Shown piece by piece: positions 1,530-28,215 of a stretch of DNA of 34,138 nt. The stretch is from a virus. The stretch spans positions 1 to 34,138 of IMG/VR virus record IMGVR_UViG_3300023116_000162. The stretch is one strand, 5' to 3'. Every line of letters begins with the position of its first letter. The stretch's first letter is position 1. A model generated the notes under the pieces. That model was given only the letters and a program-made list of their open reading frames with translations. It did not search any database and was not told where the DNA came from. The translations under genes were made by a program, and so were the position numbers.

Positions 1530-3671
1530 ATGGCTATAGAATTCGATACATTTCCAAGCGCTGGCGGCGGTGGATCCGTCGGCACATTACAACAAGTTAC
1601 CGATCAAGGCGCAACGACGACGACCAATATTCAAACCGCGCAAATTACTTTAACCGGTGATTTACTAGCAAGTTCAAATAATGCGCGAACAATCGGCGAT
1701 GAAACAAATCGTTTTATTACTGCATATTCTGACTTGAACGGTGCGTTAAGATTTAAAGCAAAAAATGATTCTGGGGTCGCATTAGTTAAGGGTCAAGCTG
1801 TATATATTAAAGGCGTTTCCGGAACGGTTCCGACAGTCGATAAAGCACAATCGAACGCAAGCGGAACAATGAACGCCGCCGGCCTTGCTTTAACCGCTGC
1901 CAACGACCAGGCGGAAGTTCAGATTATTACATTCGGAAATTTAAATTCGGTCGATACATCTTCATTTAATGCTGGCGATGTTCTTTATATTAGTTCATCA
2001 ACGGCCGGCGGACTTGTAAATTCAGCGCCGACCGGCGAAAGTAATTTGATTCAAAATATCGGCGTCGTTGTTCGAAGTCATGCGACCGATGGTGTTATTA
2101 AAGTTTCTGGCGCTGGTCGTTCGAATGCAACGCCGAACTTGGATAATAATAAATTATTTCTTGGAAATGGATCGAATCAAGCGGTTTCAACGGCATTAAG
2201 CGCGATTAACTTATCGTCGTTTAATGATGATTTAAACGCGTTAATTTCTACGAATAATTTAAGCGATCTTAACAACGCATCAACCGCGCGAACGAATCTC
2301 GGACTCGGAACCGCTGCAACTCAAGACGTCGGAACGTCGGCGAATAATGTTGTTCAATTAAACGCCAGCGCACAATTACCAGCGGTCGACGGTTCGTTAT
2401 TAACGAATATTACAGCGACAGATAGCACAAAGCTAGCGATCGCGAATAATCTAAGCGATCTTAACAACGTCGCCACCGCGCGAACGAATCTCGGACTCGG
2501 AACCGCCGCAACTCAAGATGTCGGAACAAGTGCGAATAACGTTGTTCAATTAGATGGAACCGCGAAACTTCCGGCGGTCGACGGTTCGCAATTAACGAAC
2601 ATTAGTCCGACCGGCGCTTTGTTAATCACGAATAATCTAAGCGATCTTAATAACGCAACGACAGCGCGAACTAATCTCGGACTCGGAACCGCCGCAACTC
2701 AAGACGTCGGAACGTCGGCGAATAACGTTGTTCAATTAAATGCAAGCGCACAATTACCAGCGGTCGACGGATCATTATTAACGAATATTACGGCGACAGA
2801 TAGCACGAAACTAGCGATCGCAAACAATCTAAGCGATCTTAATAACGTCGCGACGGCACGAACTAATCTCGGACTCGGAACCGCCGCGACTCAAGACGTC
2901 GGAACAAGTGCGAATAATGTTGTTCAATTAAATGGAAGCGCACAGTTACCAGCGGTCGACGGATCATTATTAACGAACATTACGGCGACAGATAGCACAA
3001 AGCTAGCGATCGCGAATAATCTAAGCGATTTAAATAACGTCGCTACCGCGCGAACGAATCTCGGACTAGGTACCGCCGCGACTCAAGACGTCGGAACAAG
3101 TGCGAATAATGTTGTTCAATTAAACGCCAGCGCACAATTACCAGCGGTCGACGGATCATTATTAACGAACGTTACGGCGACAGATAGCACAAAACTAGCG
3201 ATCGCGAATAATCTAAGCGATTTAAATAACGTGGCGACGGCTCGAACGAATCTCGGACTAGGTACCGCTGCGACTCAAGACGTCGGAACGTCGGCGAATA
3301 ACGTTGTTCAATTAGATGGAAGCTCAAGACTTCCGGCGGTTGACGGTTCGCAGCTTACAAATTTACCAAGTTCCGGCGGTGGCTTTACATATCAATCGAT
3401 AACGTCCGCATCATCGCCAGTTTCGGCGGTTGCTAGTTATCATTATTCGGCGGATACGTCCGGCGGTGCGATAACTGTAAATCTTCCGGCTTTAAGTGGC
3501 GTTACTGCCGGAACCGAAATCCGTTTTAAATTAAAAACGGCCGGCAATAATTTAACTTTAGACGGCAATTTAACGGAAACAATCGACGGAAGCGCGACAT
3601 ATATTTTAAGCGTTCAGAATCAAGCCGTAACTTGTGTATCCGACGGCTCCGGAAACTGGGAGATAATCTAA
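1530..3671 (+). CDS. Tail fibre protein with six 64-residue repeats
   Basis: This 713-aa protein has a unique N-terminal region (1-240) with a glycine-rich start (SAGGGGS) and a beta-rich section resembling those of many phage virion proteins. Next come six tandem repeats of about 62-64 residues (about 242-610), each beginning NNLSDLNN and containing ARTNLGLGTAATQDVGTSAN and LPAVDGS.LTN. A beta-rich C-terminal domain of about 100 residues closes it, with DGSATYILSVQNQ and ending SDGSGNWEII. The NLSDLNNxxTARTNLGLG element is a common phage fibre shaft motif. The protein probably trimerises into a fibre that reaches the host surface. AAGGATT lies upstream of the ATG. Repeat number could vary by recombination. 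Confidence 0.8.
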   Translation: MAIEFDTFPSAGGGGSVGTLQQVTDQGATTTTNIQTAQITLTGDLLASSNNARTIGDETNRFITAYSDLNGALRFKAKNDSGVALVKGQAVYIKGVSGTVPTVDKAQSNASGTMNAAGLALTAANDQAEVQIITFGNLNSVDTSSFNAGDVLYISSSTAGGLVNSAPTGESNLIQNIGVVVRSHATDGVIKVSGAGRSNATPNLDNNKLFLGNGSNQAVSTALSAINLSSFNDDLNALISTNNLSDLNNASTARTNLGLGTAATQDVGTSANNVVQLNASAQLPAVDGSLLTNITATDSTKLAIANNLSDLNNVATARTNLGLGTAATQDVGTSANNVVQLDGTAKLPAVDGSQLTNISPTGALLITNNLSDLNNATTARTNLGLGTAATQDVGTSANNVVQLNASAQLPAVDGSLLTNITATDSTKLAIANNLSDLNNVATARTNLGLGTAATQDVGTSANNVVQLNGSAQLPAVDGSLLTNITATDSTKLAIANNLSDLNNVATARTNLGLGTAATQDVGTSANNVVQLNASAQLPAVDGSLLTNVTATDSTKLAIANNLSDLNNVATARTNLGLGTAATQDVGTSANNVVQLDGSSRLPAVDGSQLTNLPSSGGGFTYQSITSASSPVSAVASYHYSADTSGGAITVNLPALSGVTAGTEIRFKLKTAGNNLTLDGNLTETIDGSATYILSVQNQAVTCVSDGSGNWEII
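2253..3366 (+). repeat. Six tandem ~192-bp coding repeats in the fibre shaft
   Basis: The codons for NNLSDLNN recur at 2253, 2445, 2631, 2823, 3015 and 3207, giving intervals of 192, 186, 192, 192 and 192 bp. The 186-bp interval is a variant unit lacking two codons (it reads SPTGALLIT where the others read TATDSTKLAIA). Copies are very similar at DNA level, with scattered synonymous changes, which suggests recent tandem duplication or ongoing gene conversion. Confidence 0.9.
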
Positions 3672-8790: not shown

Positions 8791-9516
8791 ATGAATGAAT
8801 TCGAATTACAAGACAAAATCATTCGATCTAAAAATCTATCAGTACGCGATAGATTTATCATGATCGCAATGTTAAAAAAAGTCGATTGGTCTACCTGGTC
8901 CGGCCAAATCACACAATCATATTTAAATAGATATACTGGCGTTTCGATGTCGACTATCAAAGCAGCTTTAAAGAATCTTGAGTCTATGAAATGGATAACA
9001 AGAACGACTCAAAGAAACGGCGCGCGTAATACTCCGACTATTATAAACATCAACGTCGAACATATATTAAAAGTTCACGGTGTTAAAATGAACGGGTCAA
9101 CTTCAACGGGTGAAAATGAACGGGTGAAAATGAACGGGTCAACTTCAACGGGTGAAAATGAACGGGTGAAAATAAACCACAATACAATAGATATAAACAA
9201 TAATAATAAAACAATAAATATAAACAATAATAATAAAACATATATAACGCGCGCGGAAGCTTTAGAACATACGTCGAATTTATCGTTTAATAATCTTGCT
9301 CATCTTTTAGACGAACGAAATAAGGTCCCGCTTCATATTCTTAACGCTGGTCATAGACGAAGCGAGATCGAACGACGTTTTAATAATTCCGATCTTGTAT
9401 CGAATCAATATAATCAATTCGAACGCGAATCAATATTCGAGAAATTTAAAAAAGATGAAATCGCCGAAGATTTTGAAATTTACGGTCATGATTCTAAGAT
9501 TGTTAAAAGTTGGTGA
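8791..9516 (+). CDS. Replication initiator-like winged-helix protein (O-like), contains origin
   Basis: This 241-aa protein probably binds the phage origin. Residues 1-90 form a helical DNA-binding region with a winged-helix look: SVRDRFIMIAML, then SYLNRYTGVSMSTIKAALKN as helix-turn-helix, and a WITRTTQRNGARNTPT wing. The middle (about 100-152) is low complexity, with NGSTSTGENERVKM twice and an Asn-rich DINNNNKT/NINNNNKT pair. These are the direct translation of origin repeats in the DNA. A helical C-terminus follows and may contact the helicase loader. It is immediately upstream of the DnaC-like gene. The arrangement equals lambda O-P. AAAAAGGG sits six bases before the ATG. Confidence 0.7.
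   Translation: MNEFELQDKIIRSKNLSVRDRFIMIAMLKKVDWSTWSGQITQSYLNRYTGVSMSTIKAALKNLESMKWITRTTQRNGARNTPTIININVEHILKVHGVKMNGSTSTGENERVKMNGSTSTGENERVKINHNTIDINNNNKTININNNNKTYITRAEALEHTSNLSFNNLAHLLDERNKVPLHILNAGHRRSEIERRFNNSDLVSNQYNQFERESIFEKFKKDEIAEDFEIYGHDSKIVKSW
9091..9174 (+). repeat. Origin iterons: six 14-bp direct repeats inside the initiator gene
   Basis: AACGGGT starts at 9091, 9105, 9119, 9133, 9147 and 9161, exactly 14 bases apart. Units alternate between AACGGGTCAACTTC and AACGGGTGAAAATG (last unit AACGGGTGAAAATA). A degenerate seventh copy may precede at 9077. Because 14 is not a multiple of 3, the motif is read in three different frames, so conservation is at DNA level and not for the protein. 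Together with the AT-rich block at 9191-9240 this is a lambda-type replication origin. Binding by the encoded protein is inference. Confidence 0.8.
9191..9240 (+). repeat. AT-rich duplicated block beside the iterons (DNA unwinding element candidate)
   Basis: A 23-bp sequence beginning ATATAAACAATAATAATAAA occurs at 9191-9213 and again at 9218-9240, a 27-bp offset. The stretch 9181-9246 contains almost no G or C. Its placement directly after the iterons matches the unwinding region of lambdoid origins. The 27-bp offset is 9 codons, giving the repeated Asn-rich peptide. The unwinding role is inference. Confidence 0.7.
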
Positions 9517-9518
9517 TT

Positions 9519-10430
9519 ATGAACGATTTAAAAAAATTAGGTGAAGAAGTTAAATTAAAGTCTATGATCATTGCATTCAATGAATTATTAAATGATCCAA
9601 ATCGCATAAAGCCGGAGCCGCCAACATTTAAGGATTGGACGAACTACGATCCAGATTATTATCATTTAAATGGATTATTAAAAACTGGTCGAAATCGAAC
9701 GTTAACGGCGATTGATCCGGCTTGTGGATATTGCGTCGAAGGTTATGAATATATTCGCGACGGTATTCATCCGAACGCTATATCATGTCGTAATTGCGGA
9801 AAATTAAGGAAATCATTAAATCGATTGATTCGCGCTAAGCTGCCGAATGATGCGATTAACGCTTGTATCTCCGATTATGAATTCGATAGTAAAGATCAAG
9901 AAAACGCATTTTATCATTTAATGAACTGGTCGCGCGATTCTATGATTCCGCCGGGTCTATTAATGTATGGCAAGCCCGGAAACGGTAAATCAACGCTATT
10001 ATATATTATAGCTAAACATAAAACCGCCGATGGATATAACGTTAAATACGCGCATCATTATCATACATTTGAACAACAAAAATCATCTTGGAATAAAAAA
10101 AACGGTTCGAATCATTTAGATAATTTTTTATATGGTGTCGATGTTCTTCTATTAGATGAATTCGGCGGTCTTGGCGGCGGAACAAAGAATTATTCGGATT
10201 GGTTTAAAAATACGACGATAGAATTTATTGGTTCGATTTATGAGCGATGGAAAGCTGGTCGAATGGCCGTCGTTATTACTACGAACGTTTATCCGTCGCT
10301 CATGAAGAATACTTTATTCGATAATAATTACGCAGTACTTTCAAGAATGCAAGATATGTTCAAGCATCCGATTGAAATTAAAGGACCGGATCGAAGGCCG
10401 GCGCTTAATCTCCATTCAGCTTGGAAGTAA
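9519..10430 (+). CDS. DnaC-like replicative helicase loader (AAA+ ATPase)
   Basis: From ATG 9519 this is 303 aa; a TTG at 9510 would add three residues. Four cysteines at residues 69, 72, 90 and 93 (CGYC and CRNC) form a likely zinc site before the ATPase core. Walker A is GKPGNGKS at 151-158 and Walker B is VLLLDEFGG at about 209-217. A long insert and VVITTN (sensor 1) follow. This is the DnaC/IstB/DnaA-like build, so it would load host DnaB at the phage origin. The gene follows the initiator with 2 bp between them, and its 3' end overlaps the leftward deaminase gene by 26 bp. No phage helicase is visible, so host DnaB is the expected partner. Confidence 0.85.
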   Translation: MNDLKKLGEEVKLKSMIIAFNELLNDPNRIKPEPPTFKDWTNYDPDYYHLNGLLKTGRNRTLTAIDPACGYCVEGYEYIRDGIHPNAISCRNCGKLRKSLNRLIRAKLPNDAINACISDYEFDSKDQENAFYHLMNWSRDSMIPPGLLMYGKPGNGKSTLLYIIAKHKTADGYNVKYAHHYHTFEQQKSSWNKKNGSNHLDNFLYGVDVLLLDEFGGLGGGTKNYSDWFKNTTIEFIGSIYERWKAGRMAVVITTNVYPSLMKNTLFDNNYAVLSRMQDMFKHPIEIKGPDRRPALNLHSAWK

Positions 10431-10890
10431 ATTCATAAAATTTATCATCCTGGTAAACGATCAAAATATTATTTTGCATTAAATACCGGATACCAGCTTT
10501 CGAATAATTGTTACTAATTGGAACGACGACGCGAGTTATTCCGCAATGATGAATCATCTTCGCGCATGCTAGGCAAGGATTGACCGAAACGAATATCGTA
10601 CAACCGGATAACATGATTCCGCGTCGACTCGCGTTCGCTATGGCGTTTAATTCGGCATGATGACAACCGATTTCGGTTCGTGTTCCGGATTGAACTTTTA
10701 ATCGTTCACGATCGCAGCCGGATCGACCGCAAAATCGACTAGGTGATTTTCGCGGCGGTCCATTAAACCCGGCGGAAATTGGATTATTATTATGATCGAT
10801 GATAAAAGCGCCGACTTTATTTCGCGGACAAATCGACATTTCGGAAATTAAACGCGCGTGTTTCATCCAATGATCAAGCCATTTCGACAT
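10405..10890 (-). CDS. Deoxycytidylate (dCMP) deaminase
   Basis: This 161-aa zinc enzyme converts dCMP to dUMP, the substrate for thymidylate synthesis. The deaminase motifs are clear: HAE at residues 78-80 with catalytic Glu80, and PCLAC at 105-109, so zinc is bound by His78, Cys106 and Cys109. An upstream CGRSGC (about 54-59) and a second His before HAE fit the dCMP deaminase/ComEB group and its extra zinc site. AAAAGG precedes the ATG. It lies 66 bp downstream of thyX in the same leftward unit, so the two form a dTMP pathway. Its end overlaps the helicase loader tail-to-tail. Confidence 0.9.
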   Translation of the reverse strand: MSKWLDHWMKHARLISEMSICPRNKVGAFIIDHNNNPISAGFNGPPRKSPSRFCGRSGCDRERLKVQSGTRTEIGCHHAELNAIANASRRGIMLSGCTIFVSVNPCLACAKMIHHCGITRVVVPISNNYSKAGIRYLMQNNILIVYQDDKFYEFTSKLNGD

Positions 10891-10956
10891 GATAAACCTT
10901 TTTTTTGAATTGAGACTATTTTAAAAGCAACCGTTTAATACTAATGTTTGAAACGA

Positions 10957-11619
10957 TCATTTATCATCATTTACACATAGATCTAAAACAAAATCAAAGT
11001 CCTTGTGATTTTGAATTAAAATTTTTGTCGCGATTGCGAAATCTCGAATTTCTTTTTGTGCATGAAGATCAAGACGAAGATTAAAAAAATGAATTAACGC
11101 ATGTAATGAACAAGTCCAATATGCCGATGAATATAATGATACCGGCAATAACATTCTAGCTTGTTCGCGACATACTCCTAAATCTAATAAACGTTCATAC
11201 GCATATTTCGCATCCTTTAGCAATGTTCTATAAATTTGATTCGCTTCATGTTGATTTAGAATATCGCCGCCGCTGCCTTGCTTAACATTGGGTATATGAC
11301 TTCGAAACGTTTCCGGTTCGTAAAATTCACAATCAAATTTAATATATCTTCCGCTGGCCTCATTCCAAGAACAACCGACTTGATGTTTCATCCATTGACG
11401 AAAAACAAAAATCGGCGCTTTGATATAAAAAGTAAAATGAATATGACGAAATGGCGAAGTATGGTTATTTTCCCATAAATATTTAATTAAATCTTTATCT
11501 CGCAATGATAAGACATCATTTTCGAAATCAGTTTTGTTGAATGATATTCGCGCGGAATCGACAATCTTTTTCGCGCTGCCGAACGAATCAATTAATTTTA
11601 CTTGCGATAATGTTTCCAT
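10957..11619 (-). CDS. thyX: Flavin-dependent thymidylate synthase ThyX
   Basis: This 220-aa enzyme makes dTMP from dUMP with FAD, NADPH and methylenetetrahydrofolate. The signature region is at residues 74-92: RQWMKHQVGCSWNEASGRY, matching the ThyX motif RHRx7S with conserved His79, Ser84, Asn86, Glu87, Arg91 and Tyr92. The two arginines of RHR are replaced by Lys78 and Gln80, which is unusual. An N-terminal helical section with SARISF and a HTSPFRHIHFTF segment also fit. AAAAGG lies before the ATG. It is transcribed leftward from the divergent operator region 11620-11722 with the dCMP deaminase. Confidence 0.88.
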   Translation of the reverse strand: METLSQVKLIDSFGSAKKIVDSARISFNKTDFENDVLSLRDKDLIKYLWENNHTSPFRHIHFTFYIKAPIFVFRQWMKHQVGCSWNEASGRYIKFDCEFYEPETFRSHIPNVKQGSGGDILNQHEANQIYRTLLKDAKYAYERLLDLGVCREQARMLLPVSLYSSAYWTCSLHALIHFFNLRLDLHAQKEIRDFAIATKILIQNHKDFDFVLDLCVNDDK

Positions 11620-15063: not shown

Positions 15064-16017
15064 ATGAGTTTAAAATTTATTGATCTATTTTGCGGTCTTG
15101 GCGGATTTAGAATTGCATTAGAATCTTTCGGTTTAGAATGTGTATTTAGTTCGGATATAGATTTACATGTACAGAAAAATTATAAATATAACTTTAATGA
15201 TAATATACATGGAGATATAACCAACATAAACATAAATGATATTCCGAATCATGATATTTTATGCGCGGGCTTTCCTTGTCAGCCTTTTTCTATTGCAAAT
15301 AAATTTATAAACGGTTTTGAACATACAAAAGGCACTCTTTTTTATAATATTATAAAGATCGCTGAAAAACATAATCCGAAATGTGTTTTTATGGAAAACG
15401 TAGCGAATTTAGAAAAGCATGATCAAGGTAGAACATTAGACATAATTATAAAGTCGTTTCGAGAAATTGGATATTATGTTTATCATAAAGTTTTAAATAG
15501 TGCGGATTATGGCACACCACAAAAACGAAAAAGAATTTATTTAATCGCGATAAAGAAAACAATTATAAAAGCTTTTAATTTTCCGGATCCGATAAAAAAT
15601 TATAATGTTTTGTTGGATTATATCGATCAAAATAACAAGGACGAAAAACTATTAGTCAAAAGAAAATGTTTTATTTATAAACAAGTGAATGATGACGAAA
15701 GATTCAACGATATTAAAAGAATCGGCTTGATTGAAAACAATGAAAAACAAGGCTATAGAATTTATTCGCCGAATGGATTATCGATTACATTTACGGCGAA
15801 CGGTGGCGGTATAGCTGGGAAAACCGGCGCATATTTAATAGACGATATTGTTCGAAAATTATCGATTGATGAATGTTTAAGGATTTTAGGATATCCAGAT
15901 AACTATCATTTTCATAATGATATATCAAACGTACAAAGATATAAAATGATCGGAAATAGTGTATCCATTGATACATTAAAACATATTACTAAAGAAATCT
16001 TGAAAGTTATATTATGA
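15064..16017 (+). CDS. C5-cytosine DNA methyltransferase (orphan)
   Basis: This 317-aa enzyme would transfer methyl groups to cytosine C5. Motif I is FIDLFCGLGGF (residues 5-15), motif IV is GFPCQPFS with catalytic Cys72, motif VI is MENV (110-113), motif VIII is QKRKRIY (153-159) and motif X contains RYKMIGNSV near the C-terminus. All key motifs are intact and the length is at the short end for this family. No restriction endonuclease is adjacent. It sits between terminase and portal and uses more ATA, AAT and TTT codons and fewer TCG/GCG codons than its neighbours, which suggests later acquisition. The likely role is protecting phage DNA from host restriction or marking its own DNA. The target site is unknown. 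Confidence 0.92.
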   Translation: MSLKFIDLFCGLGGFRIALESFGLECVFSSDIDLHVQKNYKYNFNDNIHGDITNININDIPNHDILCAGFPCQPFSIANKFINGFEHTKGTLFYNIIKIAEKHNPKCVFMENVANLEKHDQGRTLDIIIKSFREIGYYVYHKVLNSADYGTPQKRKRIYLIAIKKTIIKAFNFPDPIKNYNVLLDYIDQNNKDEKLLVKRKCFIYKQVNDDERFNDIKRIGLIENNEKQGYRIYSPNGLSITFTANGGGIAGKTGAYLIDDIVRKLSIDECLRILGYPDNYHFHNDISNVQRYKMIGNSVSIDTLKHITKEILKVIL

Positions 16018-23885: not shown

Positions 23886-25184
23886 ATGGCAGTTACTCAT
23901 AGATCGATTGGCGTCGCCGTCGAAACTTTATTCGGATCATTAGATACAAATACAAATTTACCGTCCGAATCCGGCTTAACATATATTTCTATTCCTTGCG
24001 AACGCGATCCGGTTGTTCTTAATGGTGAGGTTCCGATTTCCGAACGCTTGGATACTCGCGACGGTTCGTATTTTATACCGCCGGAAATTGATACAGTTTT
24101 ATCCGGTGGAAATAACGTACAACGTCGAACCGGAACGGTTACCATTCGACTTGATTTAACGACAATCGGATCAAGCGCGGCGGATTATAGTTCAAATTAT
24201 TTAGGTTATCTTTTAGGCGCATTTTTCAAAACTAAAGTATCGTCCGTAACTTCCGCGACGGTTTCAACGATTACAAGTACTAATGCGTTTCAAGTTGTTT
24301 CCGGCGGTCCAACAGCGACCGATGTAGGAACATTGATATCTAGTGAATTAAAAGGCCGCGTCGAATATTCAGCAATTACAGACGACGCCGACGGAAGTTC
24401 AGATATTACAATTTCACCGGCTTTTAGTGCGAACTTTACAGGAACGCCAGATATTCGCGGGACACAAACCTGGTTCCCTGGTTCAAGAACGAACACCGGC
24501 GAACGCGAACATTCATTATCTTTTAGAATCGACGGCGTTAACTTCCAAGAATTTTATTTCGGTTGCGTCGGTGAATCACTGAACATTAGTTTAGACAATG
24601 GGCGACTTATGGCCGAAATGACATTTCAAGCGGCACATATTAAAAATGAAAATGGAAGCGCGACCGGACCAATCGAACCCGTATATAATAACGGCGCTCC
24701 GCCATTTTTCCGTAATTCTTACGTTATTGTTTCGGATTCTTCGCCGACATCTTTAACTAATGCGTCGACCGGTGATAAACTTGGACAAATACAACTTGAT
24801 TGTGAAGATTTCACATTAAGTTATACTAATACTTTAACGCCGCTTGGCCATAGCGAATCAATCATCGCAATGTCAGATATGGAAATTACTGATATTGATA
24901 TTGAGTTGACTTTAACGCTATCCACTGTTAACACTACATTAAATAACGATTATATTCGTCGCGTTGTTCGTCAAGTGCTAGTCGGTACCGGTCCAACTGG
25001 CGACGGTCTAGGATGCGCGATCATGATTCCGGCTGCTCAATTAGCTAATGATCCGGCTAAATATGACGTATCCGGTAATGATATCGTTCGTCAAACATTA
25101 ACATATAAACAAAGTAGATTCGGCGGCGATGTCATCGAAACCGGCGCCGGTAATTCTCCGTTTAGATTAGCATTAGGAATTTAA
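23886..25184 (+). CDS. Major tail tube protein (putative)
   Basis: This 432-aa beta-rich protein begins with VTHRSIGVAVETLFGSLD and contains RTGTVTIRLDL, LSFRIDGVNFQEFYFGCVGE and DFTLSYTNTLTPLGHS, the strand pattern of siphovirus tail tube proteins (the FxxGCxGxxLxIxxxNGxxxxxxF phrase is common in them). It is longer than the usual 200-250 aa, so extra decorating domains are probable. It precedes the tail chaperone and tape measure genes, as expected. GGAG lies before the ATG. Confidence 0.75.
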   Translation: MAVTHRSIGVAVETLFGSLDTNTNLPSESGLTYISIPCERDPVVLNGEVPISERLDTRDGSYFIPPEIDTVLSGGNNVQRRTGTVTIRLDLTTIGSSAADYSSNYLGYLLGAFFKTKVSSVTSATVSTITSTNAFQVVSGGPTATDVGTLISSELKGRVEYSAITDDADGSSDITISPAFSANFTGTPDIRGTQTWFPGSRTNTGEREHSLSFRIDGVNFQEFYFGCVGESLNISLDNGRLMAEMTFQAAHIKNENGSATGPIEPVYNNGAPPFFRNSYVIVSDSSPTSLTNASTGDKLGQIQLDCEDFTLSYTNTLTPLGHSESIIAMSDMEITDIDIELTLTLSTVNTTLNNDYIRRVVRQVLVGTGPTGDGLGCAIMIPAAQLANDPAKYDVSGNDIVRQTLTYKQSRFGGDVIETGAGNSPFRLALGI

Positions 25185-25188
25185 TAAA

Positions 25189-25698
25189 ATGGCGTTGCAT
25201 TTTCTTACATCTTCAGAACAAACTATCGATGTCGTTTCGACTTGCGATAATTCGGTAAAAATTGATGAATCAAAATATTTTGATTATCTTAATACCGGCG
25301 ACATTAGTTTATTAGAATTAAAAGACGATGCGACAATATTTAAATTAAAACCATTAACGCCAGAAGATCGCGAAAACGCAGAAATCGCCGCCGGTGCTTT
25401 AACACGTTCCGAACTTGGACGATTTTTATTTGTAAATTCGCCAAACGACGAAAAAGAAAAAGCGATTTATCATCATGCTTTGAATGAAGATGAGCGAAAA
25501 GCATATTCAGAATATGCGGCATATATTGGACGCGTTACTATTGAAATGATTAAAAAATCATTAGTAGAAATCAACGGCGAATCCGCTTCGTTCGATATGA
25601 TTCAATCGATTAGACCGGACCGCGATCGATTACAGACTATTACCGAATTATCGATTCATGTACAAAGAATTTCTTTGATCGGTGATTTGGGAAAATAG
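25189..25698 (+). CDS. Tail assembly chaperone, short form (gpG-like)
   Basis: This 169-aa acidic helical protein is placed between tail tube and tape measure genes, the standard slot for gpG-type chaperones that coat the tape measure during tail assembly. It contains FKLKPLTPEDRENAEIAAGA and a long Glu-rich helix. The zero-frame product ends GDLGK then TAG (25696-25698). Its last codons are G GGA AAA, a slippery heptamer, so a fraction of ribosomes would make the longer fusion described separately. Confidence 0.7.
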   Translation: MALHFLTSSEQTIDVVSTCDNSVKIDESKYFDYLNTGDISLLELKDDATIFKLKPLTPEDRENAEIAAGALTRSELGRFLFVNSPNDEKEKAIYHHALNEDERKAYSEYAAYIGRVTIEMIKKSLVEINGESASFDMIQSIRPDRDRLQTITELSIHVQRISLIGDLGK

Positions 25699-26108
25699 CT
25701 ATCGCTTCGGCCGTATGGGTACCATTTTCCGCTGGTCGAAGCTGGTCATGTGAACAATGCGAAAAGAATCCAACGTTACGGCGTCAACGTGGTAATTGTG
25801 GAAGCGCGTTTAAAAAAGGCTTGCCACAATCGGCGGAAGATGAAAACGGCGTTTACGTTTACGGATATCGAATCGCGCCGAACTCCGGCGAATCATATTC
25901 CGATTTAAAAATTCGTCATTGTCCAATTTCAAACATGAATCGATTATCGTCTGTTATTAACAATTATCAAAAATTTAAAAAAGGAATTGTGCAAATAAAA
26001 GACATATATAAAAATCCGACGATCGCGATTATTGAATGTTTTGATTTATTAGATTATAATCAAAATCTAATGATTGCGCGTAAACATGAGCAAATGAAAG
26101 ATATGTAA
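25189..26108 (+). CDS. Tail assembly chaperone, -1 frameshift fusion (gpGT-like)
   Basis: A -1 shift at GGGAAAA (25689-25695) continues reading at ATA 25695 to the stop at 26106-26108, giving about 306 aa. The added 137 residues start IAIASAVWVPFSAGRSWSCE and contain CEQCEKNP and later NCGS, a possible four-Cys metal site, then a helical C-terminus. The downstream frame has no convincing start of its own: a TTG at 25821 would drop the Cys-rich part and lacks a ribosome site. Stop codon TGA at 25683 in the -1 frame shows entry must occur between 25686 and 25698. The fusion ends 1 bp before the tape measure ATG. Confidence 0.8.
25689..25742 (+). promoter_or_regulatory. Programmed -1 ribosomal frameshift signal
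   Basis: The slippery heptamer G GGA AAA is at 25689-25695 in the zero frame. After an 8-base spacer comes a 9-bp stem: GCTTCGGCC (25704-25712) pairs with GGTCGAAGC (25734-25742) with one G-U pair and a 21-base loop. Heptamer type, spacer and stem are all within the known range of -1 frameshift sites, and lambda G-GT uses the close relative GGGAAAG. The zero-frame stop directly follows the heptamer. Confidence 0.85.
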
Positions 26109-26109
26109 T

Positions 26110-28215
26110 ATGGCGAACGGCGGAACAATAGAAATAGACGTCGAATTAAGCGGCGCGAAAGACATAACCGAAGAATTTGAATCAATCGGTAACGCTGGCA
26201 AAAAATTAGCGTCATCAATGGGAAATACTAACGAAAAACTAGGCGAAGGAATCGACCAGGTCGGCGAAACGGTTTCCGGATTATTAAATTCTTTTAGAGA
26301 TTTGGGAAAAACAATCGGAAAAGTCGGAAAAACCGGCGGTGTCTCTTTTACTGGTTTAGTATCGCGTTTCGCTGGCGTTGTCGGCGCAGCATACGCAGCT
26401 TACGAAACATTTAATTTATTATCGGGCGCAGCGCAAGAAGCCGAAGAAAATACAGCAAATATGGCAGCGGCGGCGGCGGATTTAGAATCGAAATTGGAAG
26501 CATTATCAGAAAACGGAGTAATTCCAACTTCGGACCAATTACAAAAATTTTCGATTGCTACATTACGCGCACAATTCGCAAAAGAAAAGTTACAAAAACA
26601 ACTTGAAAAATTTTCGAAAGCTGCAATCAAAGATTATGAAGCAACGCAACGACTAGAAAAAGCTACCGAAGCATTATCGAAAGCACAAAACGCCGCCGTT
26701 CGTAATGAACGCGCGTTAATAGAAGCACGCGCAGAATTTCAACGCGCGACCGTCGCAAGTACAAAAGCAAATATCGCGTTTCAAAATTCCGTCGGTAAAT
26801 TAAGAAAAGAACAAGAAAAAGTTGACGCTGGAATAGAAAAATCCGGCAAGATGTTAAAAGCATTAGAAGAAACAAGCGCGGAATCATTACAAAGCAAAAT
26901 TAAAGAAAATGCGGCAAAATTAGAAGGTTTAGTTTTAGGCGAATTAGAAACTAGATTAAGCGAAGATCAATTTAAGTTAAAATCATTACAAGTTAAAGAA
27001 GATACAAAATTACAATTATTACAAGCCGAAAGAAACAAAGATAATCGCGACGCCTTAATGAAACAAAATGATGATTTGGCGATCGCGATAAACTTGATTG
27101 ATCAAGAACGCGCAGTTACGCGGCGAACAATGTTCGAACGTATGAAGTTGATGGAAGAAATCGAAGAAAAAAAGAAATCAGCGCGCGAAAAAGATAAACA
27201 AAATGCCGAACGTGCGAGAATGAGCGCCGAACGCGAAAGACAAAGACAAGCCCAGATAGAAATGCAAAAAGTCGCAGAACGCGCGCGTATCCAACAACTA
27301 ATTATTGAAAATCAAAAGGATTCGGAACAAAAACAAATTAAACTCGCTGTACTTCGATATAATACGGCGTTACAACTCGCGAAAGATAATAATAATCAAA
27401 GAATTATCGCGGAACTTGCATTTCAAAATGAATTAAAATCAATTCGTAAAACATTCCAAGCGGAACAAGATTCGCAACGTTTAGCAAGATTAGAAGCGAA
27501 TAAACAATTCGCATATGAAACCGCCGAATTCAATATTCAACAAATCGAAAACGAATTCGAACGCGAAAATCTTTTACTAGCTTTACAATATGCGCAACGT
27601 TTAGACGCTGCGAAAAATAATCAAGAACAAATAACAGAATTAAATAGAAGATTCGCAATCGAAAGACAAAATCTTGTTTCACGTGAAACCGATATCGTTA
27701 ATCAAAAGTTATCTGGCTTTTTTGGAAATATGGGACGTGGATTCGCCGAAGCGGCAGTCGGTGCGATCATGTTCGGCGATTCATTCAAACAAGCGACCGC
27801 GCAATTATTACAAACACTAGCGAAACAAGCCGGTGTCGAATCATTGATCGAATTCGCGAAAGCTGCCGCATTTTCTATTACCGCGCCACCGTTGGCGGCG
27901 GCACATGCGAAAGCCGGAACAATATTCGCAGCGGCAGCGGTGGCCGCCGGTGGCGCGGCTTCGGTTATGGGTGCCGGTGGCGGTGGCGGTGGCGGTGGCG
28001 GTGGCGCGGGTATTAGCGGAAATATTTCGCCGTCCGGATCACCTCAAACATCAAATATGATAGAACGCGAACAAGCGACCGAACAAACATTAGTATTTAA
28101 TGTTAACTTTTCCGGCGCCGTCGTATATGATACAAAGAAAGCGGCGGAACAAGCGTTAGCCGATCGCATTACAAAAATAATGAAACAACAACGACGCGGA
28201 AAACCAAGAGTTTAA
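26110..28215 (+). CDS. Tape measure protein
   Basis: This 701-aa protein sets tail length. The N-terminal 70 residues include a helical start (DITEEFESIGNAGKKLASSM); a hydrophobic Gly/Ala stretch at about 80-105 (VSRFAGVVGAAYAAYETFNL) follows. Long charged coiled coil spans about 115-500, rich in Ala, Glu, Lys and Gln. Then come a hydrophobic Ala-rich zone (IEFAKAAAFSITAPPLAAAH) and a run of glycines. A 701-aa helical tape measure would suggest a tail near 100 nm by the usual 1.5 angstrom per residue rule. The gene holds a near-perfect parS site (27675-27690) coding VSRET. Confidence 0.85.
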   Translation: MANGGTIEIDVELSGAKDITEEFESIGNAGKKLASSMGNTNEKLGEGIDQVGETVSGLLNSFRDLGKTIGKVGKTGGVSFTGLVSRFAGVVGAAYAAYETFNLLSGAAQEAEENTANMAAAAADLESKLEALSENGVIPTSDQLQKFSIATLRAQFAKEKLQKQLEKFSKAAIKDYEATQRLEKATEALSKAQNAAVRNERALIEARAEFQRATVASTKANIAFQNSVGKLRKEQEKVDAGIEKSGKMLKALEETSAESLQSKIKENAAKLEGLVLGELETRLSEDQFKLKSLQVKEDTKLQLLQAERNKDNRDALMKQNDDLAIAINLIDQERAVTRRTMFERMKLMEEIEEKKKSAREKDKQNAERARMSAERERQRQAQIEMQKVAERARIQQLIIENQKDSEQKQIKLAVLRYNTALQLAKDNNNQRIIAELAFQNELKSIRKTFQAEQDSQRLARLEANKQFAYETAEFNIQQIENEFERENLLLALQYAQRLDAAKNNQEQITELNRRFAIERQNLVSRETDIVNQKLSGFFGNMGRGFAEAAVGAIMFGDSFKQATAQLLQTLAKQAGVESLIEFAKAAAFSITAPPLAAAHAKAGTIFAAAAVAAGGAASVMGAGGGGGGGGGGAGISGNISPSGSPQTSNMIEREQATEQTLVFNVNFSGAVVYDTKKAAEQALADRITKIMKQQRRGKPRV
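27675..27690. promoter_or_regulatory. parS: Second parS-like site (15 of 16 match)
   Basis: TGTTTCACGTGAAACC matches the chromosomal parS consensus TGTTTCACGTGAAACA except for the last base. The 14-bp core GTTTCACGTGAAAC (27676-27689) is a perfect palindrome. It lies inside the tape measure gene. It is 21,455 bp from the first site in one direction and about 12,544 bp in the other on the closed circle. Confidence 0.75.
27976..28005 (+). repeat. Hexanucleotide tandem repeat (GGTGGC x5) in tape measure gene
   Basis: Five perfect copies of GGTGGC lie in a row, coding a glycine run in the tape measure protein. The period is a multiple of three, so slippage would change the number of glycines without a frameshift. 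GC content here is far above the genome average. Confidence 0.85.

Follow-up and report, generated by a model that had tools for sequence, protein, structure and literature searches.

The locus examined here raises the question of whether two adjacent reading frames, lying immediately upstream of a tape measure gene in an uncultured tailed virus, are two genes encoding two proteins or a single gene with two products. It was found in a stretch of 34,138 bases, the whole of which was analyzed and is referred to as the window (IMG/VR virus record IMGVR_UViG_3300023116_000162), in which portal, terminase, major head and tape measure genes are present. The original prediction, made from the nucleotide sequence, was that a slippery heptamer and a stem-loop at the end of the first frame allow ribosomes to shift into the -1 frame and to make a tail chaperone with a C-terminal extension. 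The short product is referred to as G, the extension as T and the fusion as GT.

Results

Gene layout

The gene directly after G was recognized as the tape measure gene from its match to PHROG 1538 (Table 1). On the other side, the 432-residue gene is also the neighbor of G in loci L003-L005. Its product had no family match, and the designation as a probable tail tube gene follows from position only.

Several other features of the window were recorded. A tandem array of 192-bp units (2250-3352, 5.7 copies, 84% match) lies within the open reading frame 1530-3671, which encodes a protein with repeats of the form NLSDLNNxxTARTNLGLGTAATQDVGTSANNVVQL; it is perhaps a tail fiber and had no Pfam match. 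A 42-bp tandem repeat (9077-9177, 2.4 copies, 94% match) within the open reading frame 8791-9516 encodes repeated VKMNGSTSTGENER. A ThyX-type thymidylate synthase (PF02511) adjoins a dCMP/cytidine deaminase (PF00383) at 10405-11619 on the minus strand, opposite to the structural genes, and a C-5 cytosine DNA methylase (15064-16017; PF00145, E 5e-86) is found between the terminase and portal genes.

Table 1. Positions in the window of the proposed frameshift cassette and the genes around it.
Feature	Position	Strand	Basis
Probable major tail (tube) protein gene	23886..25184	+	position only
Gene G, zero-frame product of 169 residues, tail assembly chaperone fold	25189..25698	+	ORF, model, alignments
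Putative slippery heptamer, G GGA AAA	25689..25695	+	sequence and relatives
T part, -1 frame, 137 codons and stop; four invariant Cys	25695..26108	+	
Zero-frame stop TAG, directly 3' of the heptamer	25696..25698	+	
Spacer, 8 nt	25696..25703	+	
Stem 5' arm, 10 bp including the closing G.U	25704..25713	+	
Stem 3' arm	25733..25742	+	
Tape measure protein gene	26110..28215	+	PHROG 1538, E 1.2e-5

The candidate slip site in the window

The reading frame of G ends in TTG GGA AAA TAG, placing the heptamer in X XXY YYZ phase. The -1 frame entered at base 25695 is open up to the TAA at 26106-26108, and the fusion GT would have 306 residues. The coordinates and counts of the original prediction were reproduced for the heptamer, the 8-base spacer, the stop and the 137-codon -1 frame. 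The stem had been described as 9 bp long; nine pairs, one of them G.U, do form between 25704-25712 and 25734-25742, but the fold adds a tenth pair, the closing G.U at 25713/25733, so that nine is one too few when this pair is counted. The total minimum free energy was -20.4 kcal/mol.

Taken alone, the window is only suggestive as evidence for a frameshift site, because its hairpin is weak (z -1.58, with 17 of 200 dinucleotide shuffles folding as well) and the plus strand contains GGGAAAA at four places. A second in-phase G GGA AAA was noticed within the tape measure gene at 26304-26310; its -1 frame is open for 34 codons, and it is probably there by chance.

K169, after which trypsin would cleave, is the residue at the G/T junction, and the tryptic peptide there, without an initiator Met, would be IAIASAVWVPFSAGR. 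The sequence GDLGK-IAIAS, which had been proposed for detection of the fusion by mass spectrometry, is thus split at the junction Lys and a different protease would be needed to span it.

Conservation of the heptamer and the stop codon

Relatives were gathered in IMG/VR through the similarity of their proteins to T or G, and never through the heptamer. The search gave 277 loci including the window, some of them one contig found twice, with 154 distinct junction sequences (the window and 153 others) in 93 groups. In the alignments of 47 members, identity to the window fell as low as 36% (T) and 41% (G). All 154 distinct sequences have an X XXA AAR heptamer, which is GGGAAAA in 148, GGGAAAG in five and CCCAAAA in one. 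The zero-frame stop followed the heptamer directly in 145 of the 154 (TAG in 137, TGA in seven and TAA in one) and lay two codons further on in the remaining nine. When the search was made with the G protein only, 78 of 79 loci had the heptamer and 77 also had the Cys motif in the downstream -1 frame. In one locus, L171, the stop within G comes earlier, and the heptamer is still present. Conservation in the 153 other distinct sequences puts the site far beyond chance. The sole match in a GTDB genome, L084, lies beside bacterial metabolic genes and was rejected as a chance match.

A sequencing error in the IMG/VR record, or decay of the gene, was considered as the cause of the break between G and T, since an indel may occur in a single metagenome assembly. 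The same break accompanied by the heptamer was found in 154 distinct sequences and in many metagenomes; this explanation is already refuted by the relatives, and its residual probability is negligible.

Conservation of the stem-loop

The folding of 47 representatives was compared with shuffles that preserve the -1 protein and codon usage, giving a mean z of -2.33. Of the 47 representatives, 94% have 6 bp or more of unbroken stem at a spacer of 8, vs. 14% in synonymous-codon controls, and the position at which the stem starts showed a peak exactly 8 bases past the heptamer. The covariation score was 0.253 vs. 0.170 for shuffles, a value reached by 0 of 500 shuffles. On a single fixed register the covariation was only partial, with 72% of the cells paired, because the 3' arm is found at varying distances in different lineages. 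The test for a stem at the spacer was judged better than covariation on a fixed register. One clade (L073 and L083) was a candidate for having lost the stem, which was rejected when a longer stretch was folded and a longer stem appeared, starting near +6. An upstream stimulator resembling a Shine-Dalgarno sequence was not convincing (mean z -0.5 vs. synonymous shuffles). Relatives without the heptamer and stem, which the original prediction had named as evidence against itself, were looked for, and both elements proved to be conserved.

Reading frame downstream of the heptamer

Divergence at the three zero-frame codon positions changed from 0.39/0.20/0.61 immediately upstream of the heptamer to 0.17/0.59/0.44 immediately downstream. 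The codon position that varies freely is displaced by one base at the heptamer, which is what translation of the -1 frame would produce. The comparison of relatives supports the proposal that the two apparent genes are joined as a G/GT-type pair, very probably by a -1 frameshift.

Other means of joining G and T were weighed against the same data. Slippage of RNA polymerase might be suspected from the run of four A at the site, but it needs longer runs, of over 7 A or 8 T (PMC3711429), and would need neither the GGG nor a stem at 8 nt. Readthrough of the stop codon would be accommodated in the window, where the zero frame is open for about 70 codons past the TAG; however, that frame closes early in most relatives, and the codon-position signature past the TAG is that of the -1 frame and not of the zero frame. 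That either process joins G and T is extremely improbable.

A further possibility was that ribosomes terminate at the end of G and restart at the ATA contained in ATAG or at the TTG at 25821, so that T would be a protein in its own right. As start codons, ATA, ATT and ATC are rare alternatives, and among the 153 distinct relatives ATG is the first -1 codon in seven and the second in one, which would allow coupled restart in these eight. At this first codon, ATA accounted for 60 of the 66 Ile cases where 14.3 were expected, an excess which indicates that the zero-frame stop itself is under selection. The first -1 codon is nevertheless GTA in five distinct relatives and ACA in one, and the more distant stop of nine distinct sequences also speaks against restart. 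Moreover, restart has no need of the heptamer or of the stem, both of which are conserved. The TTG at 25821 would be picked by gene finders, but a start there would shorten T by its first 42 residues, among them the invariant W17, C19, C22, R32, G33, N34 and C35 of the CxxC...RGNC part. The structural model of T is confident from the first residue (pLDDT 94). No ATG, GTG or TTG was present upstream in the -1 frame among the 153 distinct relatives, and in 118 of them the -1 frame upstream of the site is closed within three codons. The original warning that a gene call at 25821 would be wrong is borne out by the loss of the conserved CxxC...C segment and by the lack of an upstream -1 start codon. 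Restart as the source of T is very unlikely.

Two sets of loci depart from the usual arrangement near position 3001. In L035, L043, L062, L067 and L068, ATT or ATC replaces ATA and the zero-frame stop lies two codons past the heptamer. In L078, L079, L081 and L199, TGA or TAA follows the heptamer and ATG is the first or second -1 codon; in these four, coupled restart could add to frameshifting.

Identity of G and T

Sequence profiles of Pfam, PHROGs and the PDB gave no usable match to G or T. For any of the 47 members, no described sequence family was found below E 0.001 in Pfam or PHROGs; one member had a PHROG tail assembly chaperone as a match, at E 0.038. The identity of G depends on fold and gene order, since no significant sequence match to the described chaperone families was obtained. 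The model of G (pLDDT 89) was compared by VIA-align with 929 chains. The two best matches were the HK97 gp13 family (PDB 2ob9; Z 5.9, a moderate score in a range where chance matches also arise; 85 residues aligned at 3.0 Å) and Bacillus YqbN (PDB 3klu; Z 5.3; 95 residues aligned at 4.4 Å), followed by a chain at Z 4.1. The likeness to both is one of structure, with an identity of about 10%. Furthermore, among the 50 best matches of the G model in BFVD, those with a functional name were tail assembly chaperones (best E in BFVD 1.4e-3, likewise moderate), including both forms from Arthrobacter phage Molivia. The fold of the model and the tape measure gene downstream suggest with good confidence that G is a tail assembly chaperone. 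The designation as a tail chaperone in the original prediction has thus gained support from the fold, through the VIA-align matches and the BFVD names.

In T, four Cys are invariant (C19, C22, C35 and C76) and the CxxC...C segment is conserved, in agreement with the Cys-rich segment noted earlier in the -1 frame. On the basis of these invariant residues, the four-Cys site is possibly a metal site. Foldseek comparison of the T structure with the PDB returned nothing below E 2, and the highest VIA-align score was Z 3.2, for the C-terminal helices; such failed matches do not prove a new fold. A literature search on Cys-rich or zinc-binding chaperone extensions yielded no paper on one, as judged by titles and the first part of abstracts.

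Discussion

The slippery heptamer of G/GT in phage lambda is GGGAAAG, and five distinct relatives of the window carry this very sequence. In the lambda model, many copies of gpG and few of gpGT are on the tape measure protein, and T recruits the tube protein (PMC5009743). The locus described here resembles lambda G/GT in having its predicted -1 frameshift late in the gene that precedes the tape measure gene, with an X XXA AAR site and a short product accompanied by a low-level fusion (PMC5009743; predicted here). It differs in that the zero-frame stop of the window is at the slip site, leaving G with no residues of its own beyond it, that a stem at 8 nt is conserved, and that T is a four-Cys domain; no sequence similarity to the lambda proteins was found. 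In HK97-like members, frameshift rates of 6-7% were measured (PMC3711429). GGGAAAA slip sites are known in the actinobacteriophages TM4 and Bush (cluster GA), and in Bush the heptamer is stated to sit in the tail chaperone gene (PMC4626039, PMC11749239). The heptamer is identical here, whereas G and T had no match, even at E 1, in a translated search of INPHARED phages. Moreover, the stop is on average 26 nt past the slip site in the SEA-PHAGES data (PMC10885494), compared with 0-2 codons in the window and its relatives. The lambda-type G/GT frameshift is already known; this locus departs from it in the stop at the slip site, in the strictness with which the stem is kept at 8 nt and in proteins of unrelated sequence.

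A -1 frameshift fits better than restart, stop-codon readthrough, slippage of the polymerase or a sequencing error, and the sequence comparisons make it very probable that programmed -1 ribosomal frameshifting sets the ratio of the two tail assembly chaperones, G and GT. The heptamer, the stop, the stem, the -1 coding frame and the chaperone fold of G are shown by comparison; we infer slippage in cells, the slippage rate and the assembly roles of G and T. Most ribosomes on gene G would end at the TAG and release G, while a minority would be paused by the stem-loop 8 nt downstream. The paused ribosomes would step back one base, from GGA to GGG and from AAA to AAA, so that base 25695 is read again and translation continues in the -1 frame to give GT. 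If assembly proceeds as with lambda gpG/gpGT, the tape measure protein would be coated by G in many copies, and the few molecules of GT would use their T domain to recruit the tail tube protein.

A more far-reaching reading is that T is an undescribed tail-initiation domain built on four metal-binding or redox-sensitive Cys and, at the same time, that the slip site is a distinct and unusually strict frameshift design, with an adjacent stop, a fixed 5' arm and a wandering 3' arm. This combination is rather doubtful. If T does have such a four-Cys metal or redox site, tail assembly in this virus group would be dependent on metal or redox state.

The gene call is corrected by this reading, in that the locus would be one gene with two products and not two genes. 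Two unnamed protein families, absent from Pfam, PHROGs and INPHARED, thereby receive a likely function. In addition, a single frameshift cassette becomes available in about 150 natural versions, among which the influence of the stem, the stop position and the heptamer could be compared. A widespread group of uncultured tailed viruses would join the users of the lambda-type frameshift, with chaperones that have no recognizable sequence kinship to known ones.
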